A DNA stretch of 64,000 nucleotides, from positions 1,374,828-1,438,827 of the forward strand of contig CACVBU010000824.1 of assembly GCA_902728285.1 (NCBI GenBank). The letters are read 5' to 3'. The stretch is from Clytia hemisphaerica (lineage: Eukaryota > Cnidaria > Hydrozoa > Leptothecata > Clytiidae). Both the position numbers and the translations under genes were made by a program. Position 1 is the first letter of the stretch. Each line of letters starts with the position of its first letter. The notes under the pieces are model-generated. The model ran no database searches. It was not told where the DNA came from and worked only from the letters and a program-made list of their open reading frames with translations. Shown here piece after piece: positions 38,313 through 58,000 of the stretch.

Positions 38313-39440
38313 AAATGATCTATTTTGGACTTTTGGTCATTTTTCATGATGATATAATTGGTGGTTGTCCCTTTTGGATTTTCAAACTTGACAATGAAAC
38401 TTTCAAACACACAGCCATTGATACACAGTATTTTTTGTGGTGTTATGCATGGCTGAAATTGATCCTGTTTTGGACTTTGTTATTGTCGTATTCATCATCG
38501 GCTGGCGACCGTTCCTTTTCACTTTTCAAACCCGACACAGATTTTTTACAAACATATCACTATGAGAATTCAATATAGGATACTGAAACACAGTTCCTGT
38601 GTAAATTTTAACAAGATTGGAGAAATTTTCACAGTCAGACAGTGTTATGGCTGAAAATAATCATTTTTGGCGACCATTCCTTTTGATTTTTCAAACCCGA
38701 CACAGATTTTTTACAAACATATCACTATGAGAATTCAGTAAAGGATACTAAAACACAATTCCTGTGTGAATTTGAACAAGATCGGAGAAATTTTCACAGT
38801 ATTATGGCTGAAAATGATCGTTTTGGACTTTGTCGTAATTTCGTCGCGGCTGGCGACCATTCCTTTTGATTTTTCAAACCCGACACAGATTTTTTACAAA
38901 CATATCACTATGAGAATTCAGTAAAGGATACTAAAACACAATTCCTGTGTAAATTTGAACAAGATCGGAGAAATTTTCACAGTATTATGGCTGAAAATGA
39001 TCGTTTTGGACTTTGTCGTAATTTCGTCGCGGCTGGCGACCATTCCTTTTGATTTTTCAAACCCGACACAGATTTTTTACAAACATACCACTATGAGAAT
39101 TCAGTAAAGGATACTAAAACACAATTCCTGTGTAAATTTAAACAAGATTGGAGAAATTTTCACAGTAATTATGGCTGAAAATGATCGTTTTTGGACCTTG
39201 TCGTAATTTCGTCGCGGCTAGCGACCGTTCTTTTTGATTTTTCAAACCCGACACAGATTTTTTACAAACATATCACTATGAGAATTCAGTAAAGGATAAT
39301 AAATCACAATTCCTGCGTAAATTTGAACAAGATCGGAGAAATTTTCACAGTGTTATAACTGAAAATAATATTTTTTGGACTTTGTCGTAATTTCATTGGC
39401 TGGGGCGACCGTTCCTTTTGACATTTTTCAAACGCGAAAC
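38313..39440 (+). repeat. Tandem repeat, unit about 183 bp, six copies
   Basis: The motif AAACCCGACACAGATTTTTT starts at 38528, 38693, 38876, 39059 and 39244, with a degenerate copy at 39430. The main unit is 183 bp (61 codons), so the phase is kept. One frame is open apart from a single TGA per unit (DTDFLQTYHYENSVKDTK, then FEQDRRNFHSIMAENDRFG). Divergence is higher at both ends. It is either a decayed repeat-protein exon or a satellite with chance openness. Confidence 0.75.
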
Positions 39441-39570
39441 AGGTTTTTTCCAAATATAACAATATTTATTACATACACACTATTGAACCATTTTATTTGG
39501 TTTATCCTACTCTTCTCCAAGTATTATCCCAGCAGAAAAAATGATGCTTAGCTAAAAACCCGTGGCTTAA

Positions 39571-39902: not shown

Positions 39903-40649
39903 TTAACGAAATTTTATCCGGACAATCAAATCAACGGCGCATCATTGCTTCGCTATTGGCAAGTTTAGAAATAAATAAATTTATAAGAACTTGGAAATAT
40001 TGACTTCTAAATGTTTATCTCCTTTAGCTCCAATTTTGAACTTTTTAGTTGAGGATGAGTGGGCGGGGGATGGGCTTGGTTGTTTAAGCAAGAAAGTGCA
40101 TGTGTAATCACTTAGAAGAGCTAAACTTCCAGCTGGTTTATTCATTCGTTAAGATTATTTCTCATACTCGCTCTGCAATAGATTTATTGCTTTGCTTTCT
40201 GATCTGTTCTGATTAGTAGTTTGTGGGCAACGTTCGAACACAACTAATTCGTTTGTTTGATACTAGATTTTAAAGTTGTCAAGTTCTTTCCTCACAATCC
40301 ATGATTGTCTTAATTGGTTCTGGATTGTAAAATAGTTTAAACATTGCAAATTCTTTCAGGGCTCAGACTTAAGCCCAGCAACCTAAATCTCTTGTGTCCT
40401 GAATTAGATTCATCTACAAACTTTCAACTTTTCAACAGGAATTGTGAGGGACCTATTTTGTGTGATATCTATGATATCGATATTTAGTAAAATGAGTTGT
40501 GTTTTATACAACTACTCTCGAGTGAAAAATTCCGAGAGTAAAGGTAGATTGTTGATTTTTGGACCTACCTCGGAGGTCCTATAAATTAACCGATGTCCGT
40601 CCGTTCGTTCGTTCGTCTGTTCGTTCGTCCGTCTGTTACCAGCTTTTCT

Positions 40650-41990
40650 CAGGATTGGCTCATTAGTTTTTTCTGATTTTTGGCACAATGATGCAAAATG
40701 GCAATGCCCAAAATGTGACGGAGCCCGATTTTCGAAAAAAAATCATTTCCGGCCGAAAATGCCGGAAATATGCCGGAAAAACCGGTTTTTTGGCATTTTC
40801 TCAAGATTTCATCATTAGTTTTTTCTGATTTTTTGCACAAAGATGCGTATTAACAATGCCCAAAACATGGCCGAGTCAGATTTTTGAGAAAAATTTTTTT
40901 TTGGCCGAAAATGCCGGAAATATGCCGGAAATCGCCGTTTTTTCTTTTTCTGGATTTTCATTGAACTTTTTCCTTATAATTGGTTGTTTTTTCATTCAAA
41001 AACATTATTAATAGCAATGCCCACCATCAAGCATGTTTTAATTTTCAATAAAATAGATTTTTGAAGCCGGAACTTTCTAAAAATCACCGGAACAGCCGAT
41101 TTTCGCCGGAAAAACGGTATTTCTTGAATTTCTTGAGCTGTACTTTATATTTTTTCATGAAATTTTGCACACTGATGCAAAATGTCAATTCCTAAATTGT
41201 GACGGAGCCCGATTTTCGAAAAACATCTTTTTCCGGCCGAAAATGGCGGAAATATGCCGGAAAAACTGGTTTTTCGGCATTTTCTCGAGATTTCATCATT
41301 AGTTTTTTCTGATTTTTTGCTCAAAGATGCGTATTAACAATGCCCAAAACATGGCCTAGTCCGATTTTTGAGAAAAAATTTTTTCCGGCCGGAAATGCCG
41401 GAAATATGCCGGAAATCGCCTTTTTCTGGATTTTCATTGAACTTTTTCCTTATAATTGGTTGTTTTTTCATTCAAAAACATTATTAATAACAATGCCCAC
41501 CATCAAGCATGTTTTAATTTTCAATAAAATAGATTTTTGAAGCCGGAACTTTCTAAAAATCACCGGAACAACCTATTTTCGCCGGAAAGACAGTATTTCT
41601 TGAATTTCTCGAGCTGTACTTTATATTTGTTTATGAAATTTTGCACACTGATGCAATATGACAATACCTAAAATGTGACAGAGCCCGATTTTCGAAAAAA
41701 AAAATTTTCCGGCCGAAAATGCCGGAAATATGTCGGAAAAATCGGTTTTTTGATATTTTCTCGAATTTTCATTTTTATTTTTTTCTGATTTTTTGCAGAA
41801 AGATGCGTATTCGCAATGCTCAAAACATGGCCGAGTTGTATTTTTGAGAAAAAATTTTTTCCGGTTTAGTTTACTTATATTTCTATGCTTTTCACACAAA
41901 AACATTATTCATAACAATGCTCGTTATCAAGCATGATTCAATTGTCAATAAAACTGATTTTTGCGACCAGAACTTCCTATTTATTATTTC
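40650..41990. repeat. Tandem repeat, unit about 484 bp, about 2.7 copies
   Basis: CATTAGTTTTTTCTGATTTTTTGC occurs at 40813 and 41297, and in degenerate form at 41770 (spacing 484 and 473). Units are marked by GGCCGAAAATGCCGGAAATATGCCGG palindrome-like stretches and by CAATGCCCACCATCAAGCATG. It is preceded at 40590-40635 by a GTTCGTTC simple repeat. An inverted relative is at 18360-18610. Short frames on both strands come from the repeat and are not genes. Confidence 0.75.
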
Positions 41991-46000: not shown

Positions 46001-49000
46001 GGGACTTGAAGAATTTCATTTACCTTCAATTTTTCTTGGATGGATATAGTGTACGATCTAAAGTCATCGAAGTTTTCCTTGAAGGTTTTCTGAAACAAGA
46101 GAAAGGCTTACATCGATTAATTAGTTACATCGATATCAATTTTCAGTCAATTTTCAACAGTCTTTCACACCCAACGGAAGTAAGACAAAAAAGTCGACAG
46201 TTTGAATTAGTGCTAGCAAAATTCAGTCTTCCGTTAAGCTTACAGACCAAGCGTAAAATATTCTATCGAAAGAGTACCGTGCGCCTATCTTGCCGCGGCG
46301 GTTCAAGTCAGACGGCCGCCTGTCATCTTAGGCGGCCGCCTAACTTATCGATGGATGGTCATCAAATTAGCTTTCTGGTCTACATTTTATATTTGAATCT
46401 TAGGCGGCCGCCTAACTTGTTAAATCTTAGGCGGCCGCTTGAGTTGATATAGGCGGCCGCCTATTCTAATTCAGGCGGCCGCCTAACTTGTTAAATCTTA
46501 GGCGGCCACCTGAGTTGGCCACCTATCTTCTGTTGCACGTGTTAATAAAGTAAACAAAAATACCAAAATGGTGTATCAAGTTGCAGAGGAATTTCAAAAG
46601 CAAGCAAAAGGAAAATGGCTACCATGTTTGTTGTTTGTTTTGAAATTTGAAATGATAAAACTGGCGGCCGCGTGAATTGAGATGATAAAAATACAGACCA
46701 GAATAGATCAGCAAGATTGACTAATTAGGCGGCCGCCTAAGTTAAGATAGGCGGCCGCCCGAGTTAATCCATCGCTAAGTTAGGCGGCCGCCTAACTTAC
46801 ACCGCCGCGGCAAGATAGGCGCAGGGATGCCCATATCAGCCACGGTAAAAGAGAGAGAAGAGAAAGAAAGAGAGAAATAGAAGTTACCATTGCATTCACC
46901 AAGATATTCGTCTGTTCTTTGTCCCCTGGTGAAGATGAACAAGTTAACCTGTGAAACGAAAAGGAATATCGCGTACCTTTCTTAAAAAAAGAAACGTCAA
47001 CAATTAACACATAAAGGAAGAGCGACACGCTCCTCTACCTACAGGTAGGTACCTAACGAAAAACGAATCTTTGGATCGATTATTAAAGATTGCACACGTA
47101 AAAAAATAAGAATTTCTGACCAACTATTTTTAATCTCCTGAAAGAAGATAGTTGGAAGAGATTCTATGAACTTTTTCACATTTATATTTGAGAAATTTTG
47201 ATGATGAATTTAGATTTTTGGGTTCCGTTTATTCAGTTTGAAGGCGAGTGAAAGTTTGAGCATGTATCTGAGGTTACTTCCACGATAAAAGAGACAAATA
47301 AAATCATATTGAGATACTTACTTTGGTGACTTCGGTGATGAGCCTTTGATGACCGACATTTTTGTGCATTCTTCGAAAAGTTCGATTGCCAAACTTTTGA
47401 AAAGCTTCTGGTGCTGAAAATGTAGCGCAAAAAGAAGTTTGTCAGTCTATGTGACTTACACTTTTTTTATAAGAACCAGTAAAATTTTTCTGAGGCTCGG
47501 CTGTTCTTACTTTTTTGGCATTTTGAGCCTCAGATTGTTCTCATCCTGTTCTTATTCATAGGATGTAATTGAGGTATTTTAGGCGTTATTTTACTAATTT
47601 GACCCCTAAATTGCTTAAAATTGAGTAATTTCAGGATCGGTTCTTAAATTGTTCTTATTTGTTGGTGATTTTGAGTCTCATTGTTCTTATTAAATTGTTC
47701 TTCTAAAAAAAAGGTGTACTATAGATAATGATTTTATAGCAAATCGATTGAAAATGACTTCAATTAAAATCAATCAAATATTCAAATTACTGTGCTTCAA
47801 AAAGATCAGAAAACGTCCTCTTCTGTGCTTAATTGTAGGGGGGTGTTAATTTTAATTTTTTCTATTTTTTCAACCCAAAAACACTTTATAATGACACCAT
47901 TTTAATGACTTTAATGACTTGCCAAAAAAAGTATCAAAAACCTTCATCTTCCTAGGGAAATTCACTAAAATCAATTCAATATCACGTAATTATGACACCC
48001 CGTTTTTATTTAAAAGTTCCACCTCCCCCCCGCTTCTTCTCTCCCCCCCCCCCCCTATACAACTAAGCACGGAAGAGTAATGGCCGAATCTCGAACAGAA
48101 TCCATACAACAACCATGGACAAAAGGTTTTTAATTAACTGGCTTACACCAGTATCAAAACGCTGATTTTTTGCTTGTGGTTCTCTCAAAAGCAATTGAAA
48201 AGCAATGCAACGACTTCAAAAGTGTTTTTCTTAACTTTCCTCCCCTTTCAGACACATTGAAGAGTCATTTTACACTATTTCTCATCATTTTTTTACTGAA
48301 ATTTCATTTGTCTACAACCTTTTGTCCATGATTGAACTTCAACTTAGCAGATTCTAGAATCAATACTAATTTTGCTCTATAAGCATACGGAAAATTCGTG
48401 CTGAGGCTCATCATACTTAGCAAAACTTCTTTTTCAGCAAATGCTTATGAAAGTTTTTTCAAAACATCGTCAATTTTGGTTGATTTTCATTTTCACTTTT
48501 ACTTCAGCTTGTCAAAACGATAATTGTTCATATTATTTATGTTTTACAGATCCTTGTTTCAAAGTGACAATTAAGTCAAATTATTCGTTGTCAACTACCC
48601 TGTCTCAGTGGCCCAAACACGATAATTGTTCATACTTTTACGCTTTACAGCGCTTTATATTAACGATCACTTGTTCAATGTGTCAAAATATTCGCTGTCT
48701 ACATTTCTGTCTCATTGATCATTCATCCCATTTTCAAAACAAAATTTGAATAATGTATTTTTCCCAGTTTCGTGCTATGCTTAGAATTATGCTTCTTTTT
48801 TGCTAATTCAAGTCTCAGTATACTAATAAACGCTATCCTTATAAAAAAGTGTATAACCTGGTTAAGTTGAAATTTGACATTTTCAAGATTGCGGTGTATA
48901 TCATCGACATTCCGAAGGTCTTGTTGTAACTGTTTATTTTTCTGGACTTCTCTCATCAATTGTGTTCGTAGGGTTGTGATCTCCTAGAAGTATGAGACTT

Positions 49001-52000
49001 TACAGAAATCACAATATTCTATACAGCAGGGATATTAGGGGGAGAGCACGAGTCTTGTTGTAACTGTTTATTTTTCTGGACTTCTCTCATCAATTGTGTT
49101 CGTAGGGTTGTGATATCCTAGAGTAGGAGACGTTACAGAAATCACAATATTCTATACAGCAGGGATATTAGGGGGAGAGCACGAGTCTTGTTGTAACTGT
49201 TTATTTTTCTGGACTTCTCTCATCAATTGTGTACGTAGGGTTGTGATATCCTAGAGTAGGATAAGCTAAAGACATTATAATATTCTATGCTAAAAGTAGG
49301 AGACGTTACAGAAATCACAATATTCTATACAACAGGAATTATGGGGAGGGCGCGAGTCTAGCGGTACCGTAGAGACTTATCATGTTTTAGCTAAAGGTTT
49401 TGCAACACGTTATTAGGAGGGAACGGGTCTAGCGGTGCCTTTGAGACTTTGAGATTATGTAAATTTTGAGATCTAATGGTCTTCTAAAAGTGGGAGATAT
49501 TTCAGATATTGTAATATTCTATACAAAAGGAATTATGTAATGGAGAGGGCACTAGTCTGAATTCATAATCTATGTTTAGCTAAGGATTTTATGAATTTAG
49601 AAGTCTATATCGCTAAAAACACGTTCATTGAAATAAAGACAGCACATTCAATTCAAAAATCCCTAATCTATTACAATACACACTTCTAAAAAGACTATTG
49701 ACCTCTCTTGTCCCTCTCCGATAAATACAGAAATAACATCGTTTCATTAACGCTGGAGAAAGACAACGTTTGATTCCAGTATGAAAGATATCCGGTCAAT
49801 ACTGTCTCTTAATGCTATTAAATCGAATCTGGCTCTTGGCAATTTATTTCCTAGTTATAGATAGAGTCGACATTTTACGCGGGTAGCCCAGTAATCTTGG
49901 ACTTTTAGACAGTTTTTCGATTGTTTTCACGGGGTCCACGGCCAGCCGGCTCGGCTATCTATGAACTGAACGGAACATTGGAAGAAGCGGGGAGCCGCAG
50001 GGAGCCGCGAACCCCTGGTTTGAGACGCGGACGCGCTAGACCACTTGGCCATCACTCCTAGTGAAAGAGCACACAATTCATCTCATAAAGAATTAGAATA
50101 GGTACCCCTGTTGCAACTTTAACATAAGGCATTTAATACTGTCTAACTTTGATGGTTCCCTTTCATCTAAAAACCATCGACAATATCAAAATTCTTACGG
50201 GATTAGTATAGACATCGTTCTGAACGTTTTTCACTTCGTTCTTCAAAAATTCGTTTTGTTGTTTCAACTCAGCTATTTCTTCTTCTTTGGCCTAACATAT
50301 AAAAAACGAAATAATGAAGCAGATTATTCTAAGTGTTTTGGAATTTGATGACAAGACGTAACCAAGGAAAAAGGGAACACTACATATCATACAAAGGGAA
50401 CAAGTCTACTCTTTAAACTTTAAAAAAGAAATTCACCTAGCCAACTTATATTCGTGAATTTTTTTATATATGTGAAGAAATCAAAAATTTCTGTCCAACT
50501 ATATTCACTCAGGAGATTTGGGTGGCAGAGCAGCATATGCATTTCGTCCTTATTGGGACTCATCAGCACTGCGTACTGCACCCTGGCTGGCCAGATCGAG
50601 TTAGCCAACCTCTCTAAACCACAAAATCACTTGTGGTTCAAACTAAGAGAAAAAGTGGACAGAAGGGTACATACTAGTTGGGGTTTTCAAACAAGACCTT
50701 ACTATCATTGAAATATCACGTTGTTCTTTCATTTCTTTGAATTGTGATTCAAACTCTTTGATCTTTGATAATTGTTTGTAAAAAGCCTGTTAACGAAAAT
50801 AAACACACCGTAATTAAAGAATAAGGTAAACAACAAAAATGCTCATGTTTAATGACGATCATTATATAAAGAAAGGTCGTTCGTCCCGTGAAAACTTTGG
50901 TGGATCAAGTAATTAAAAACAAAAATGTGCCCTTGCCATGAGCAAGAAATTAGGGAGGTCTGGTATGGATAGTCTCTCACAAACATTAGTATGCCTTGTG
51001 GGTGGAGAGATTTTTCCATCCCGCCCAAGCCTACGACGTGGGTGGTCGTAAAATACTATCATTATTATAATTATAAGGGTTGAAAAGAAAATTTGAACTA
51101 TGCAGATAATTTTGAAGAAATAGAAGATAACTTCAATTCTAAAAGAGAAATGAAATCTACCTTTTCTAGGTCTGATACACGATTTTCCAATTGACTTTTC
51201 TTCGATCGCAAATTTTTTACCTATATAATTGATGCATTACATAATTAAATCAAGGAAAACTAAACAACCTGGTTTGTTGCATTGGAGGTGATCTATAGAA
51301 ACGCACCATTATAACATACGTAAGTTTCCAACCCAAGTTGAGGGAGACCCAATGCTCTCTTTTCTTTAGGACTATCCGAAGGTAGGGGAGGGCGCCACTC
51401 TCATTCCCCTCTAGCTGCCGAGCATCAAGTTAAAGATGTACCGAATGCATGCAATTTTGGCAATCTTTAGTGTGACCTACTCCACAACCTTGAGTACAGT
51501 AGCTGGATGATCTAACTTCATGTTAGGGCACACCTTTATTAAAACAGACGTGAAAAACGGCTTCTAGTAGAAATTTGATGCAATATATTTAGATCGTATA
51601 TATTGGACGAAGGATCGAGACAAAAATACGATTAGATACTAGAGGTTATTTAGATCGTATTAATCTTTGTGAGATTTAATTTCGCGAGCCAAAAGATTTG
51701 TGAATCAGCGTTTTGAAAATTTTTTTGATTCTGAGGGTGAAAAATAAAAGTGAATTAACAACTACCTCTGTATTTAAATTGGATCTGTTTTCAGTCTCCT
51801 GGTGTTGCATACGGACGATTTGTTGTGATTTTTCATTCAATATTTCTTGCAGTTGTAAACAAAGATGTTCTTTCTTTGAAAGTGATTCTTTCAGCTGTTC
51901 GTTCTCTTCTTGTATCAAGTCTTTCTCTTTTGTGGTGGTGGACAATTTCTTCTGAAGAGTGCTGATTTGTCGCTCAGTTCTCTAGTACATTAGCAATGAA

Positions 52001-55000
52001 GTAAAAGCTAAGCAAATACGTTTTTTATAAGAACAATATAAGAAAATAAAACTTCGATGGCCAAAATGTTAAGAACAAGTTAAGAACATTTTAAGGCTTT
52101 GCAGATTCTAAAACACCGCAAAATGGGCAAAAATGCTCGGAAAATGGTCAAAATAAGAACACGTTAAAAACATTTATAGGCTCAAAAGGCTATAAACTCA
52201 AATGGTTAAGAACATTCGAAGGCTTCAAAAATGTTGGATGTTCTTATAAAAAAAACGTGTACTTTAATTTGAGTATGATATGTGTAAAAAAACTTTTTTT
52301 GGCAAAATCGAAAGGTTTTCGAATCAAAGGTTTTCGAATCAAAGGTTCTCATTCAGTTTTTGATCATTGCTAAAGACATCCACCTATATGATGGCTCTCC
52401 TTTGTTCCTGGTTACTCTCAGGTGCCTAATAAGCGTCCCCCCGCTCATTAATTTTCGAAAATTTACCACTCAAGACATTTTTATTCCAACAATCAACAAA
52501 AAGTTCCCTCTTTTGCCCTAATTCTGCTGTATTAGCCTCCTTTTCAAAATTTTCCACCCAGTACATTTTTTTCCAACCCAACAACACCCCCCAAACCCCC
52601 TAGCTAGCCCAGAGAGTAACAATTATTTTTGGTCTCAATGGTCTATTTTTCAGAGACATTTCAATTAAGTTTTGACCACTTGAAACTTTACATGTATCCA
52701 ATAATTGTTTACCTCGCTTAGTGTTAAGATTTCCTGACTTTTCTTCATTTCCAAATTGGCTAACTCATCTTTGAGAAAAGTGACCTCATTTTGTAAACTA
52801 TTGTCCAGTGAGCTCTGAAAGTAAAAAATCATAGCAAAGAATGTGTTTACACTGAAATACTTTGGTTGGACAAAAACTGCTTGTAATATTTCGGTCAAAT
52901 TCACCCTTTTCAGAAGACAAATAAACACGAATTTGAATTGAATCTCTTTGCATACCTGTGAAACACCATAAAACACTATTTTTTTATAAGAACAATGAGG
53001 CTCAAAATCGGCAAGAAATAAGAATAATTTAAGAACATTGCTGAGCCTAAATTTACTCAATTTCAAGCAATTTAGGGGTTTAAGAAAAAAAATTTGGTAT
53101 AACGCCTAAGATACCCCAATTACATCCAATTACATCAAAAGAACAGGATAAGAACAATTTCAGGCTCAAAGTGCCAAAAAAATAAGAACAGCTGAGCCTC
53201 AGAAAAACTTTACTGGTTCTTATAAAAAAAGCGTAAAATAATACACCGCAACGTTGACAGATAAATAGAAAATTGCATTTTTAACATACATTAAGCTTCC
53301 ATTTGAGTAATCTTGAGGTATTTGCTTCATTTTCATGATAATAACTTTCTTCGTAATAATCTTCTTGAGACTTGAAGGGTTTTTCCTCCGCAGCTGGTGA
53401 TTTGGATTGAAGGTCATAAGATTTTGTGACGTGTTTGGTGTTATTGTTTGTTTTGAAACCTACGGAGAAGACAAGATGGGAGTTAACCAAGGCGTTCTAA
53501 ATCCATAGGCCAAGCAAGCGTGCATCAACTTCGATTTTGTGGGAGCTCAATTTTTCAAAGTCGTTGCATTGAAGAAAGAAATCGAAGTCGAGATTAAAAT
53601 ATTCTGCGACCCTAAGGGATACATTTTTTAGAGATTTTCATGATGATGCAATGCGAGTAATTAGAATACCATGGAGTAAACGACTTTAGCTAAAAATATA
53701 TTGAAAAATCATAGCTACAGATAAAATTGACTACATTCTTTTTTTCAGCGTTTCTTAAAACCTTGTTCTTTCATATAAGCCATGGGAAAAAGTTTCATAT
53801 CTTGTTGGGATAGTAAGAAAACACGAAACTACAAGAACAATTTCTTACTTGGAGCTTCTTCATTGACTTCTGAAGTATTACATTTTGCTGGGCCTCTGAA
53901 TAAAGAACTTTAAAGATCATTTATTTTTGAATTGTAAATTTACATAAAAGGCATTTCACTTGTAATAAAGAAGTTGGGTAACGATAGATGTAAATATCTC
54001 AATAAGTGGGTTAATTTTTGCGAGTAGATATTTTCGCTCAGTTTCGCTAGACAATTATTTTCAAAAATAATTTAGTTTTCACAGGAGTTATTTGGGACGA
54101 GATGGAGTTTTTAAAAGCTCTTGTTTGATTTGGTTGGTTGTTAACCAGTAATAAAACAATTTTGTTACTTTTTCTAAAGAACGCGTCATTTTTATTACTT
54201 CAAATGACCAATTATTAAAATATCTTATAAAAACTCCATCTCATCTGTGTTATTTTCGGGAATTGGTACACCTTTTTCAACTAATGTCTTTCATTTTCCT
54301 AGAGGTTTTGGCAAATTTCTGTGTTTTCAAAATTTTCACTAGCTTCCAGAAGAGGAGATACATATCATCAAACCTGTTCCTTGAAATATCAGCGAGAAGT
54401 TTATTGATAATGTTCTGACCCTCTCTACATATCATCAAACCTGTTTCTTGAAATATCAACAAGAAGTTTATTGATAATGTTCTGACCCTCTCTACATATC
54501 ATCAAACCTGTTTCTTGAAATATCAACAAGAAGTTTATTGATAATGTTCTGACCCTCTCTACATATCATCAAACCTGTTTCTTGAAATATCAAACAAGAA
54601 GTTATTGATAATGTTCTGACCCTCGCCCTCTCTACATATCATCAAACCTGTTTCTTGAAATATCAGCAAGAAGTTTTATTGATAATGTTCTGACCCTCTC
54701 TACATATCATCAAACCTGTTTCTTGAAATATCTGCAAGAAGTTTATTGATAATGTTCTGACCCTCTCTACATATCATCAAACCTGTTTCTTGAAATATCT
54801 GCAAGAAGTTTATTGATAATGTTCTGACCCTCTCTACTGATCATCAAAACCTGTTTCTTGAAAATATCTGCAAGAAGTTTATTGATAATGTTCTGACCCT
54901 CTCTACATATCATCAAACCTGTTTCTTGAAATATCAGCAAGAAGTTTATTGATAATGTTCTGACCCTCTCTACATATCATCAAACCTGTTTCTTGAAATA

Positions 55001-58000
55001 TCAGCAAGAAGTTTATTGATAATGTTCTGACCCTCTCTACATATCATCAACCTGTTTCTTGAAATATCAGCAAGAAGTTTATTGATAATGTTCTGACCCT
55101 CTCTACATATCATCAAACCTGTTCCTTGAAATATCTGCAAGAAGTTTATTGATAATGTTCTGACCCTCTCTACATATCATCAAACCTGTTTCTTGAAATA
55201 TCTGCAAGAAGTTTATTGATAATGTTCTGACCCTCTCTACATATCATCAAACCTGTTTCTTGAAATATCAGCAAAGAAGTTTATTGATAATGTTCTGACC
55301 CTCTCTACATATCATCAAACCTGTTTCTTGAAATATCTGCAAGAAGTTATTGATAATGTTCTGACCCTCTCTACATATCATCAAACCTGTTCTTGAAATA
55401 TCAGCAAGAAGTTTATTGATAATGTTCTGACCTCTCTACATATCATCAAACCTGTTCTTGAAATATCTGCAAGAAGTTTAATGTTCTGACCCTCTACATA
55501 TCTCAAACCTGTTCTTGAAATATCGCAAGAATTATTGATAAGTTCTGACCCTCTCTACATATCATCAAACCTGTTTCTTGAAATATCAAGAAGTTTTTGA
55601 AATGTTCTGACCCCTCTCTACATATCATCAAACCTGTTTCTTGAACTATCTGCAAGAAGTTTATTGATAATGTTCTGACCCTCTCTACATATCATCAACC
55701 TGTTTCTTGAAATATCAGCAAGAAGTTTATTGATAATGTTCTGACCCTCTCTACATATCATCAAACCTGTTTCTTGAAATATCAGCAAGAAGTTTATTGA
55801 TAATGTTCTGACCCTCTCTACATATCATCAAACCTGTTTCTTGAAATATCAAGCAAGAAGTTTATTGATAATGTTCTGACCCTCTCTACATATCATCAAA
55901 CCTGTTTCCTTGAAATATCTGCAAGAAGTTTATTGATAATGTTCTGACCCTCTCTACATATCATCAAACCTGTTTCTTGAAATATCTGCAAGAAGTTTAT
56001 TGATAATGTTCTGACCCTCTCTACATATCATCAAACCTGTTCTTGAAATATCTGCAAGAAGTTTATTGATAATGTTCTGACCCTCTCTACATATCATCAA
56101 ACCTGTTTCTTGAAATATCTGCAAGAAGTTTATTGATAATGTTCTGACCCTCTCTACATATCATCAAACCTGTTCCTTGAAATATCAGCAAGAAGTTTAT
56201 TGATAATGTTCTGACCCTCTCTACATATCATCAAACCTGTTTCTTGAAATATCTGCAAGAAGTTTATTGATAATGTTCTGACCCTCTCTACATATCATCA
56301 AACCTGTTCCTTGAAATATCTGCAAGAAGTTTATTGATAATGTTCTGACCCTCTCTACATATCATCAAAACCTGTTTCTTGAAATATCTGCAAGAAGTTT
56401 ATTGATAATGTTCTGACCCTCTCTACATATCATCAAACCTGTTTTTGAAATATATCTGCAAGAAGTTTATTGATAATGTTCTGACCTCTCTCTACATATC
56501 ATCAAACCTGTTTCCTTGAAATATCTGCAAGAAGTTTATTGATAATGTTCTGACCCTCTCTACATATCATCAAACCTGTTTCCTTGAAATATCTGCAAGA
56601 AGTTTATTGATAATGTTCTGACCCTCTCTACATATCATCAAACCTGTTTCTTGAAATATCTGCAAGAAGTTTATTGATAATGTTCTGACCCTCTCTACAT
56701 ATCATCAAACCTGTTCTTGAAATATCTGCAAGAAGTTTATTGATAATGTTCTGACCCTCTCTACATATCATCAAACCTGTTTCTTGAAATATCTGCAAGA
56801 AGTTTATTGATAATGTTCTGACCCTCTCTACATATCATCAAACCTGTTTCTTGAAATATCTGCAAGAAGTTTATTGATAATGTTCTGACCCTCTCTACAT
56901 ATCATCAAACCTGTTTCTTGAAATATCTGCAAGAAGTTTATTGATAATGTTCTGACCCTCTCTACATATCATCAAACCTGTTCTTGAAATATCTGCAAGA
57001 AGTTTATTGATAATGTTCTGACCTCTCTACATATCATCAAACCTGTTTCTTGAAATATCTGCAAGAAGTTTATTGATAATGTTCTGACCCTCTCTACATA
57101 TCATCAAACCTGTTTCTTGAAATATCAGCAAGAAGTTTATTGATAATGTTCTGACCCTCTCTACATATCATCAAACCTGTTCCTTGAAATATCTGCAAGA
57201 AGTTTATTGATAATGTTCTGACCCTCTCTACATATCATCAAACCTGTTCCTTGAAATATCTGCAGCAAGAAGTTTATTGATAATGTTCTGACCCTCTCTA
57301 CATATCATCAAAACCTGTTCCTTGAAATATCTGCAAGAAGTTTATTGATAATGTTCTGACCCTCTCTACATATCATCAAACCTGTTCCTTGAAATATCAG
57401 CAAGAAGTTTATTGATAATGTTCTGACCCTCTCTACATATCATCAAACCTGTTTCCTTGAAATATCTGCAAGAAGTTTATTGATAATGTTTCTGACCCTC
57501 TCTACATATCATCAAACCTGTTCCTTGAAATATCAGCAAGAAGTTTATTGATAATGTTCTGACCCTCTCTACATATCATCAAACCTGTTCCTTGAAATAT
57601 CTGCAAGAAGTTTATTGATAATGTTCTGACCCTCTCTACATATCATCAAACCTGTTCCTTGAAATATCTGCAAGAAGTTTATTGATAATGTTCTGACCCT
57701 CTCTACATATCATCAAACCTGTTTCTTGAAATATCTGCAAGAAGTTTATTGATAATGTTCTGACCCTCTCTACATATCATCAAACCTGTTCCTTGAAATA
57801 TCTGCAAGAAGTTTATTGATAATGTTCTGACCCTCTCTCACTTTTTCATCCATCTTTTCTGAAAAGAAAAAAAAAGTTCCATTTTCTTCTAAGCTTAGAT
57901 AAGAATTGTAAACTTTTGTGGCACAAAGTGCTCAAAAAAGTTCAAAAAAATTCGAGTGAAATATCGAGAAATAAATAACTAACTTACAATTGCTACACAG

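Follow-up and report, generated by a model that had tools for sequence, protein, structure and literature searches.

A 5'-truncated hammerhead retrozyme in a Clytia hemisphaerica intron, from a family probably mobilised by a Penelope-like element

Conserved hammerhead ribozymes exist in the introns of amniotes, as described in the accessible part of PMC6155905, and amphibian hammerheads with a one-pair helix III are reported in the available text of PMC7229834 and PMC6155905 to cut well as dimers and poorly alone. As for animal retrozymes, what is accessible of PMC7229834 and PMC7761336 names Penelope-like elements (PLEs) no more than strong or likely candidate movers. For one PLE, the accessible portion of PMC11167929 describes an enzyme that initiates at a fixed internal site and uses AT-rich DNA targets.

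Here we describe a hammerhead ribozyme in a 64-kb stretch of the Clytia hemisphaerica genome (the window, i.e. the whole stretch of DNA analysed). A sequence-only reading had recognised it as a complete type I hammerhead on the minus strand, lying in the sense strand of an intron, and had proposed that it acts on the pre-mRNA or, as a fallback, marks an old retroelement insertion. An intronic ribozyme is in itself ordinary, and it is the family behind it that matters. We consider that the window probably carries a 5'-truncated copy of a non-LTR retrozyme with its hammerhead complete, from a family moved by the reverse transcriptase (RT) of one Penelope-like element, called X below.

The ribozyme occupies positions 50520..50583 of the minus strand and is supported by sequence reading, a structure check, a sub-gathering Rfam match to HH9, folding and recurrence in the genome. 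Every part named in the sequence-only reading was found in its place. The sequence reading puts the CUGAUGA core at 50566-50560, stem II (GUCC/GGAC, loop CAAUAA) at 50559-50556 and 50549-50546, and the GAAA at 50545-50542. Helix III is minimal: one A-U pair (A50542-U50537) is capped by a palindromic UGCA loop, and a U50541-A50538 pair is also possible on paper. The cleavage triplet AUA (A50538-U50537-A50536) predicts a cut after 50536. An inner stem I of 6 bp (GCAGUG/UGCUGC), whose two core-proximal pairs are wobbles, is separated by the internal loop UAC/U from an outer stem I of 8 bp with one bulged C (GGGUGCAG/CUGC-C-ACCC). All three helices are present, the open end lies in stem I, and the structure check found standard pairs in 20 of 20 positions.

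The covariance search that the earlier reading had suggested gave a divided answer. Rfam returned no match at the gathering score in the 64-kb window; the top match at the ribozyme was Hammerhead_HH9, with 29.2 bits against a gathering score of 52 (E = 0.0033 on the whole window, 8e-6 on 161 bases). Because sister copies reach only 22.4-26.5 bits in cmscan (24.1-26.5 for those with an intact core in L012, L013 and L018), no better than the window copy, we judge the sub-gathering score to be a limit of the Rfam models. Taken literally, this outcome is the one the earlier reading had named as a refutation, but the motif itself is upheld.

The bare core pattern is not rare, with 10 matches in the window against 6.2 expected. 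A strict descriptor, which combines core, stem II, A-U helix III, NUH and 5 bp of stem I, matches the window at the hammerhead alone and gave one match on 60 first-order Markov sequences of 64 kb. The fold has a z-score of -3.1, with 1 of 200 shuffles equally good. These single-site statistics are suggestive, and recurrence in the genome is decisive for the motif being real: the pattern CTGAYGAGTCCN{4,10}GGACGAAA has 258 exact genome matches, a count that mixes at least two loop-II families among the matches listed (first 100 places), and the reversed-pattern control has 0. A chance hammerhead was rejected on the Markov control of the descriptor together with this recurrence. No pair changed on both sides in 28 aligned rows, the copies being too alike, and because there is no covariation among them the structure is supported by descent only.

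The ribozyme lies within a 5'-truncated retrozyme monomer of 203 bp (50465..50667, minus strand), which blastn aligns to positions 45-246 of a 300-bp unit with 94.6% identity. Its 3' end, CACATATATA (50465..50474, minus strand), is the stop point of most sampled copies. An older remnant of the family at 47084..47188 consists of inverted pieces (blastn: unit 207-253 on the minus and 194-248 on the plus strand), is 79-81% identical to the unit and does not include the ribozyme part. A 141-nt ribozyme query against the animal's own 417-Mb genome gave at least 41 matches, several spaced exactly 300 bp. The ribozyme sits in a copy of a multicopy 300-bp element, and the fallback guess of an old retroelement insertion was sound.

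We fetched 44 retrozyme loci, and the unit was taken from the array in L011 (period 300 bp, 3.8 copies, 99% matches); further arrays occur elsewhere. These 44 loci are partly dependent, since L016, L017 and the window copy represent one insertion and L042 and L047 one duplicated place, and as they were fetched with a ribozyme-containing query, shorter copies lie outside the sample. The GC content of the unit, 0.437, is below the 0.45-0.50 that bounds the low GC of retrozymes. The family consists of tandem repeats that fall in the 150-450 bp range and carry one type I hammerhead apiece; the window copy is a lone fragment. Core, GAAA and cleavage segment are retained in 40 of 54 ribozyme-spanning copies, and 14 are without them. 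We place the family among the animal non-LTR retrozymes because size, tandem build, GC and ribozyme type fit those given in the accessible text of PMC7229834, and the window ribozyme belongs to a shortened copy of such an element and is not an intron-specific device.

Among 49 retrozyme places, three of which are in the window, 35 have their 3' end at unit 245-248, i.e. within 4 nt, in CACATATATAT. The 5' starts are ragged over the unit, 19 of the 49 falling at unit 40-61. The fixed 3' end and ragged 5' ends form the pattern that target-primed reverse transcription leaves when it begins at one internal point. The arrays are multimers; most share this 3' end and open with a truncated unit. The sampled last copies cross the cleavage point, as would be expected of uncut or re-closed RNA, but this observation is biased, the query itself having contained that region, and we make no claim of it. 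Target-site duplications are clear in L011, the best case, and unclear in most loci.

The host intron belongs to a coiled-coil gene and spans 411 nt (50292..50702, minus strand), as indicated by its splice sites (GTAAG at 50702, TTAG at 50292), by open frames in the exons on both sides (ending in KEMKEQRDISMI and beginning with AKEEEIAELKQQNEF, respectively) and by alignment with the paralogous genes in L016 and L017. The intron length in the earlier reading is exact to the base, and the sense orientation of the hammerhead was right as well. Both paralogues carry the same insertion at the same point, and 2 nt of the cleavage site are missing in each. With the cleavage site deleted in both paralogous introns, conservation in homologous introns of the HH9/HH10 kind is not seen, and we find no sign of the gene having retained the ribozyme for its own use. 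As helix III is of the type found in the amphibian hammerheads that work as dimers, cleavage by the lone window copy should be weak. The copy should thus be a bystander in the intron that cuts the pre-mRNA weakly if at all, and we infer little or no effect on splicing.

Several other repeats were observed nearby. A 133-bp tandem repeat lies at 48918-49288, downstream of the intron on the gene strand, and has matching sequence in L016 and L017. Tandem arrays occupy 38503-39465 and 40644-41864, their periods being about 165-183 bp and 476 bp, repeated GC-rich palindromes (GGCGGCCGCC) stand at 46396-46516 in AT-rich surroundings, and 54359-57838 holds 52 copies of a 67-bp tandem repeat where the GC skew is strong (-0.23 to -0.28).

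Element X, which is joined to some of the retrozyme copies elsewhere in the genome, has an open frame of 817 aa and a pseudo-LTR layout: in one locus a copy of its 3' part stands on either side of the open frame. The copies are 99-100% identical, and 40 of 40 scored (the best 40 of 407 candidates) end at query 245-251; with a query running through the X end site, 38 of 40 copies stop at 129-150. This fixed end lies near the start of the open frame, when the frame is counted from the preceding stop. The match of X to RVT_1 (E 4.8e-6) scores 26.9 bits against a Pfam cut-off of 29.6. The protein also matches the PLE families B and A of the same genome weakly (E 4e-4 each, in single comparisons), and at its N terminus 20 residues, 12 of them identical, are similar to the final part of the family B GIY-YIG domain (E 3e-4). 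Pfam gave no GIY-YIG match in X, and searches of PDB and NCBIfam with X gave nothing useful. Presumably the RT motifs of X are similar to those of a PLE-type RT; PLEs with an N-terminal endonuclease bear the name Naiad. X reads as one young, putative Penelope-like element, with a likeness to the GIY-YIG families A and B that is weak but present. These two families, both with fixed 3' ends, were seen in the 3' flanks of L057-L084, and by eye they have degenerate hammerhead-like motifs near the 3' end (CTGATGATGAT...ATCGAAAC; GGCC-GGCCGAAATATTC).

The 3' end of X lies directly at the 5' junction of the retrozyme in 5 of 44 loci (L012, L018, L022, L040 and L046). The alignments at these junctions score 71-139, against 26 for the next best (180 comparisons), and the junctions fall at different unit positions and have different 3' flanks. 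X 3' sequence is present in 6 of the 44 retrozyme loci and in 3 of 6 loci of a further element, Y, described below; 38 of the 44 retrozyme loci are without X. Neither X nor Y is present within the 64-kb window. Families A and B were rejected as partners: they form no junctions, their 3' ends occur in 0 of 44 retrozyme and 0 of 6 Y loci, and they have no significant sequence in common with the unit (best E 4.1). Conversely, the 30 GIY-YIG loci, of which 18 carry A ends and 11 carry B ends, contain neither the retrozyme nor Y; the R1 model gives one weak match in them (15.8 bits, E 0.13). X and the retrozyme have the start-site sequence ATATATAT|TCT in common, a likeness that is not significant: in a set of 90 further AT-run contexts, among them a few from the retrozyme and Y, 15 are as good upstream, 5 downstream and 1 on both sides.

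How the junctions arose bears on which enzyme moved the retrozyme. X runs without loss as far as its AT tail in three loci (L018, L022 and L046), and the copy in L012 lacks just that tail, which the retrozyme's own AT end could hide; these four junctions are also compatible with insertion into an X AT tail, and some of the junctions in repeats might reflect nested insertion or misassembly. The same retrozyme might accordingly have been moved by another enzyme, a LINE or another PLE, with all X junctions being nested insertions into X AT tails, and the AT-rich flanks (over the 12 nt of 5' flank nearest the element the AT fraction is 0.76, against a background of 0.64; 10 of 45 flanks have an AT run) and the abundance of RVT_1 in the genome (7552 first-look candidates) would suit such a history. 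In L040, however, X ends 21 nt short and the missing part is not found beyond the retrozyme, which nesting does not explain and which appears to speak for template jumping. The 64-kb window also has 40 (AT)3 runs, so that the X tails (407 candidates) should be a tiny share of the AT runs expected in 417 Mb, and yet 5 of 44 retrozyme loci sit on X tails. Nested insertion, too, would imply a common target preference. We regard another enzyme as unlikely and prefer the RT of X.

Two further explanations dispense with a mover of this kind or give the ribozyme a task in its gene. Satellite DNA, spread through DNA recombination or extrachromosomal circles with the ribozyme as a passenger, would produce tandems of exactly 300 bp, but it accords badly with the many dispersed single copies that have a common 3' end and ragged 5' ends, with the head-to-head inversion of the retrozyme in L034 and with the joining of the retrozyme to a retroelement, and we hold it to be highly improbable. 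The other explanation is that the intronic ribozyme has been domesticated, cutting the pre-mRNA and tuning splicing as proposed for amniote intronic hammerheads. It draws on the sense orientation, the complete core, the position in an intron and the amniote precedent in the accessible part of PMC6155905. Against these stand the weak helix III, the frequency of the element elsewhere in the genome and the predicted native monomer fold, which at -21.1 kcal/mol lies about 3 kcal/mol higher than the MFE of -24.2 and has an inner stem I probability of 0.30. A domesticated splicing ribozyme was rejected on the two paralogous introns, which are dead at the cleavage site, and hardly any credence is left for it. 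Nor is action of the ribozyme on the pre-mRNA supported, given a multicopy element, a helix III of the weak type and a cleavage site deleted in the paralogues.

For the retrozyme family with X as its mover, we propose the following cycle, in keeping with the common 3' end, the scattered 5' starts, the tandems of exactly 300 bp and the X junctions that were observed. Tandem retrozyme copies would be transcribed, and neighbouring hammerheads, paired through the self-complementary AUGCAU segment of helix III, would cleave as dimers. By analogy with published animal retrozymes, the cut monomers may be ligated into circles. The reverse transcriptase of X would use this retrozyme RNA, primed by AT-rich nicks at a fixed internal site whose last letters are ATATATAT, and would run to a ragged 5' end or through more than one round of the template. 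This agrees with the PLE enzyme in the accessible portion of PMC11167929, which likewise starts at a fixed internal site on AT-rich DNA.

Element Y is a 352-nt tandem unit with a putative twister-P1 ribozyme (L013:983-1053, L085:1762-1832 and L101-L106), first met in L085, a contig stretch beside an X locus. The twister-P1 matches in two loci reach 59.3 and 57.7 bits (E 2.1e-11 and 5.8e-11) against a gathering score of 67.2; L085 also has a weak Twister-P5 match on the minus strand at 2376-2431 (29.2 bits, gathering 37.6). Six Y loci were fetched, and L102 and L105 look like one duplicated place. In clusters from the best 40 of 257 first-look candidates, the last copy of Y ends at unit 352 (ATATATAT), the point at which the unit was phased, in 35 of 40, at 351 in 2 and elsewhere in 3. 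A hairpin-capable 15-mer, GGCTCCAAAGGAGTC, is common to Y and the hammerhead retrozyme and lies 57 and 59 nt past their ends, respectively. An AT run with this 15-mer at 45-75 nt has 129 genome matches, overlaps being counted repeatedly, and 0 in the reversed control. A second hammerhead family, dispersed over L087-L092, L094, L096 and L097, was noted as well: its loop II is mostly TGGGAA, its helix III contains CACGTG, it seems to end about 10 nt past stem I, and it scores 28-30 bits with Hammerhead_1 in 4 of 5 scanned loci (L088, L089, L092 and L096; not L087). L096 also contains a Y end.

The three elements are found next to one another. Y immediately precedes the hammerhead retrozyme in L013; in L028 the hammerhead retrozyme is followed by a Y end and then an inverted X; L103 has the order Y-X-Y, and in L104 and L106 an inverted X stands beside Y. 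Among the sampled places, those less than 1 kb apart number 4 for X and Y (two around one Y array), 2 for X and the hammerhead retrozyme (one being the query's own) and 1 for Y and the hammerhead retrozyme. Uniform placement would give 0.018, 0.019 and 0.011, an excess to be read as an order of magnitude only, since a preference of all three for AT-rich sites would make the true expectation higher. On our reading, a single PLE would mobilise both the hammerhead retrozyme and Y. We lean slightly towards a wider form of it, in which one PLE supports a guild of unrelated ribozyme mini-elements whose ATATATAT end mimics its start site and whose GGCTCCAAAGGAGTC acts as a handle. Against a shared handle, X itself is without the 15-mer in the 111 nt read past its end. 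If the guild exists, the ribozyme class would be interchangeable and the PLE handle would define a retrozyme.

In the open-access literature we found neither a twister retrozyme nor a PLE-retrozyme junction, which is no proof, as subscription papers were mostly outside this search. The accessible text of PMC7761336, PMC8216279, PMC4918200, PMC9695139, PMC7936874 and PMC11721086 contains neither; these papers, PMC7761336 and PMC9695139 among them, do describe twisters in RTE-type LINEs and put PLEs forward as candidate movers. Since the retrozyme is joined to one PLE of this genome but to neither of two others, the mover is directly testable with one protein and few RNAs, and if a tandem twister element is built alike, retrozymes would not depend on the hammerhead.

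Of the known systems, the metazoan non-LTR retrozymes of Cervera and de la Pena (2020, PMC7229834), in the text accessible, are alike in their type I hammerhead, tandem build of about 300 bp, dispersed copies, low GC (0.437 here) and PLEs within the same genome. Unlike there, as far as that text extends, the 3' insertion end could here be placed at a single site, and one PLE adjoins some of the copies. The amphibian satellite hammerheads (newt satellite 2, HHR_Amex1) have the same one-pair helix III, palindromic tetraloop and tandems of about 300 bp, although the window element is another element, likened to them by description. The retrozyme resembles Penelope-like elements in that its 3' start site is internal and fixed, its targets are AT-rich, and its copies occur in tandem and are truncated at the 5' end. 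Unlike PLEs and their minimal hammerheads, it has a ribozyme with a full two-part stem I, in a unit whose 300 bp leave no room for an RT gene; families A and B of this genome show, by eye, only degenerate motifs. Y, finally, resembles the twisters of RTE and Perere LINEs (accessible text of PMC9695139 and PMC7761336) in carrying a putative twister inside a retroelement; those of PMC7761336 lie at the 5' end of RTE retrotransposons, whereas Y is a 352-nt tandem unit of retrozyme-like build.
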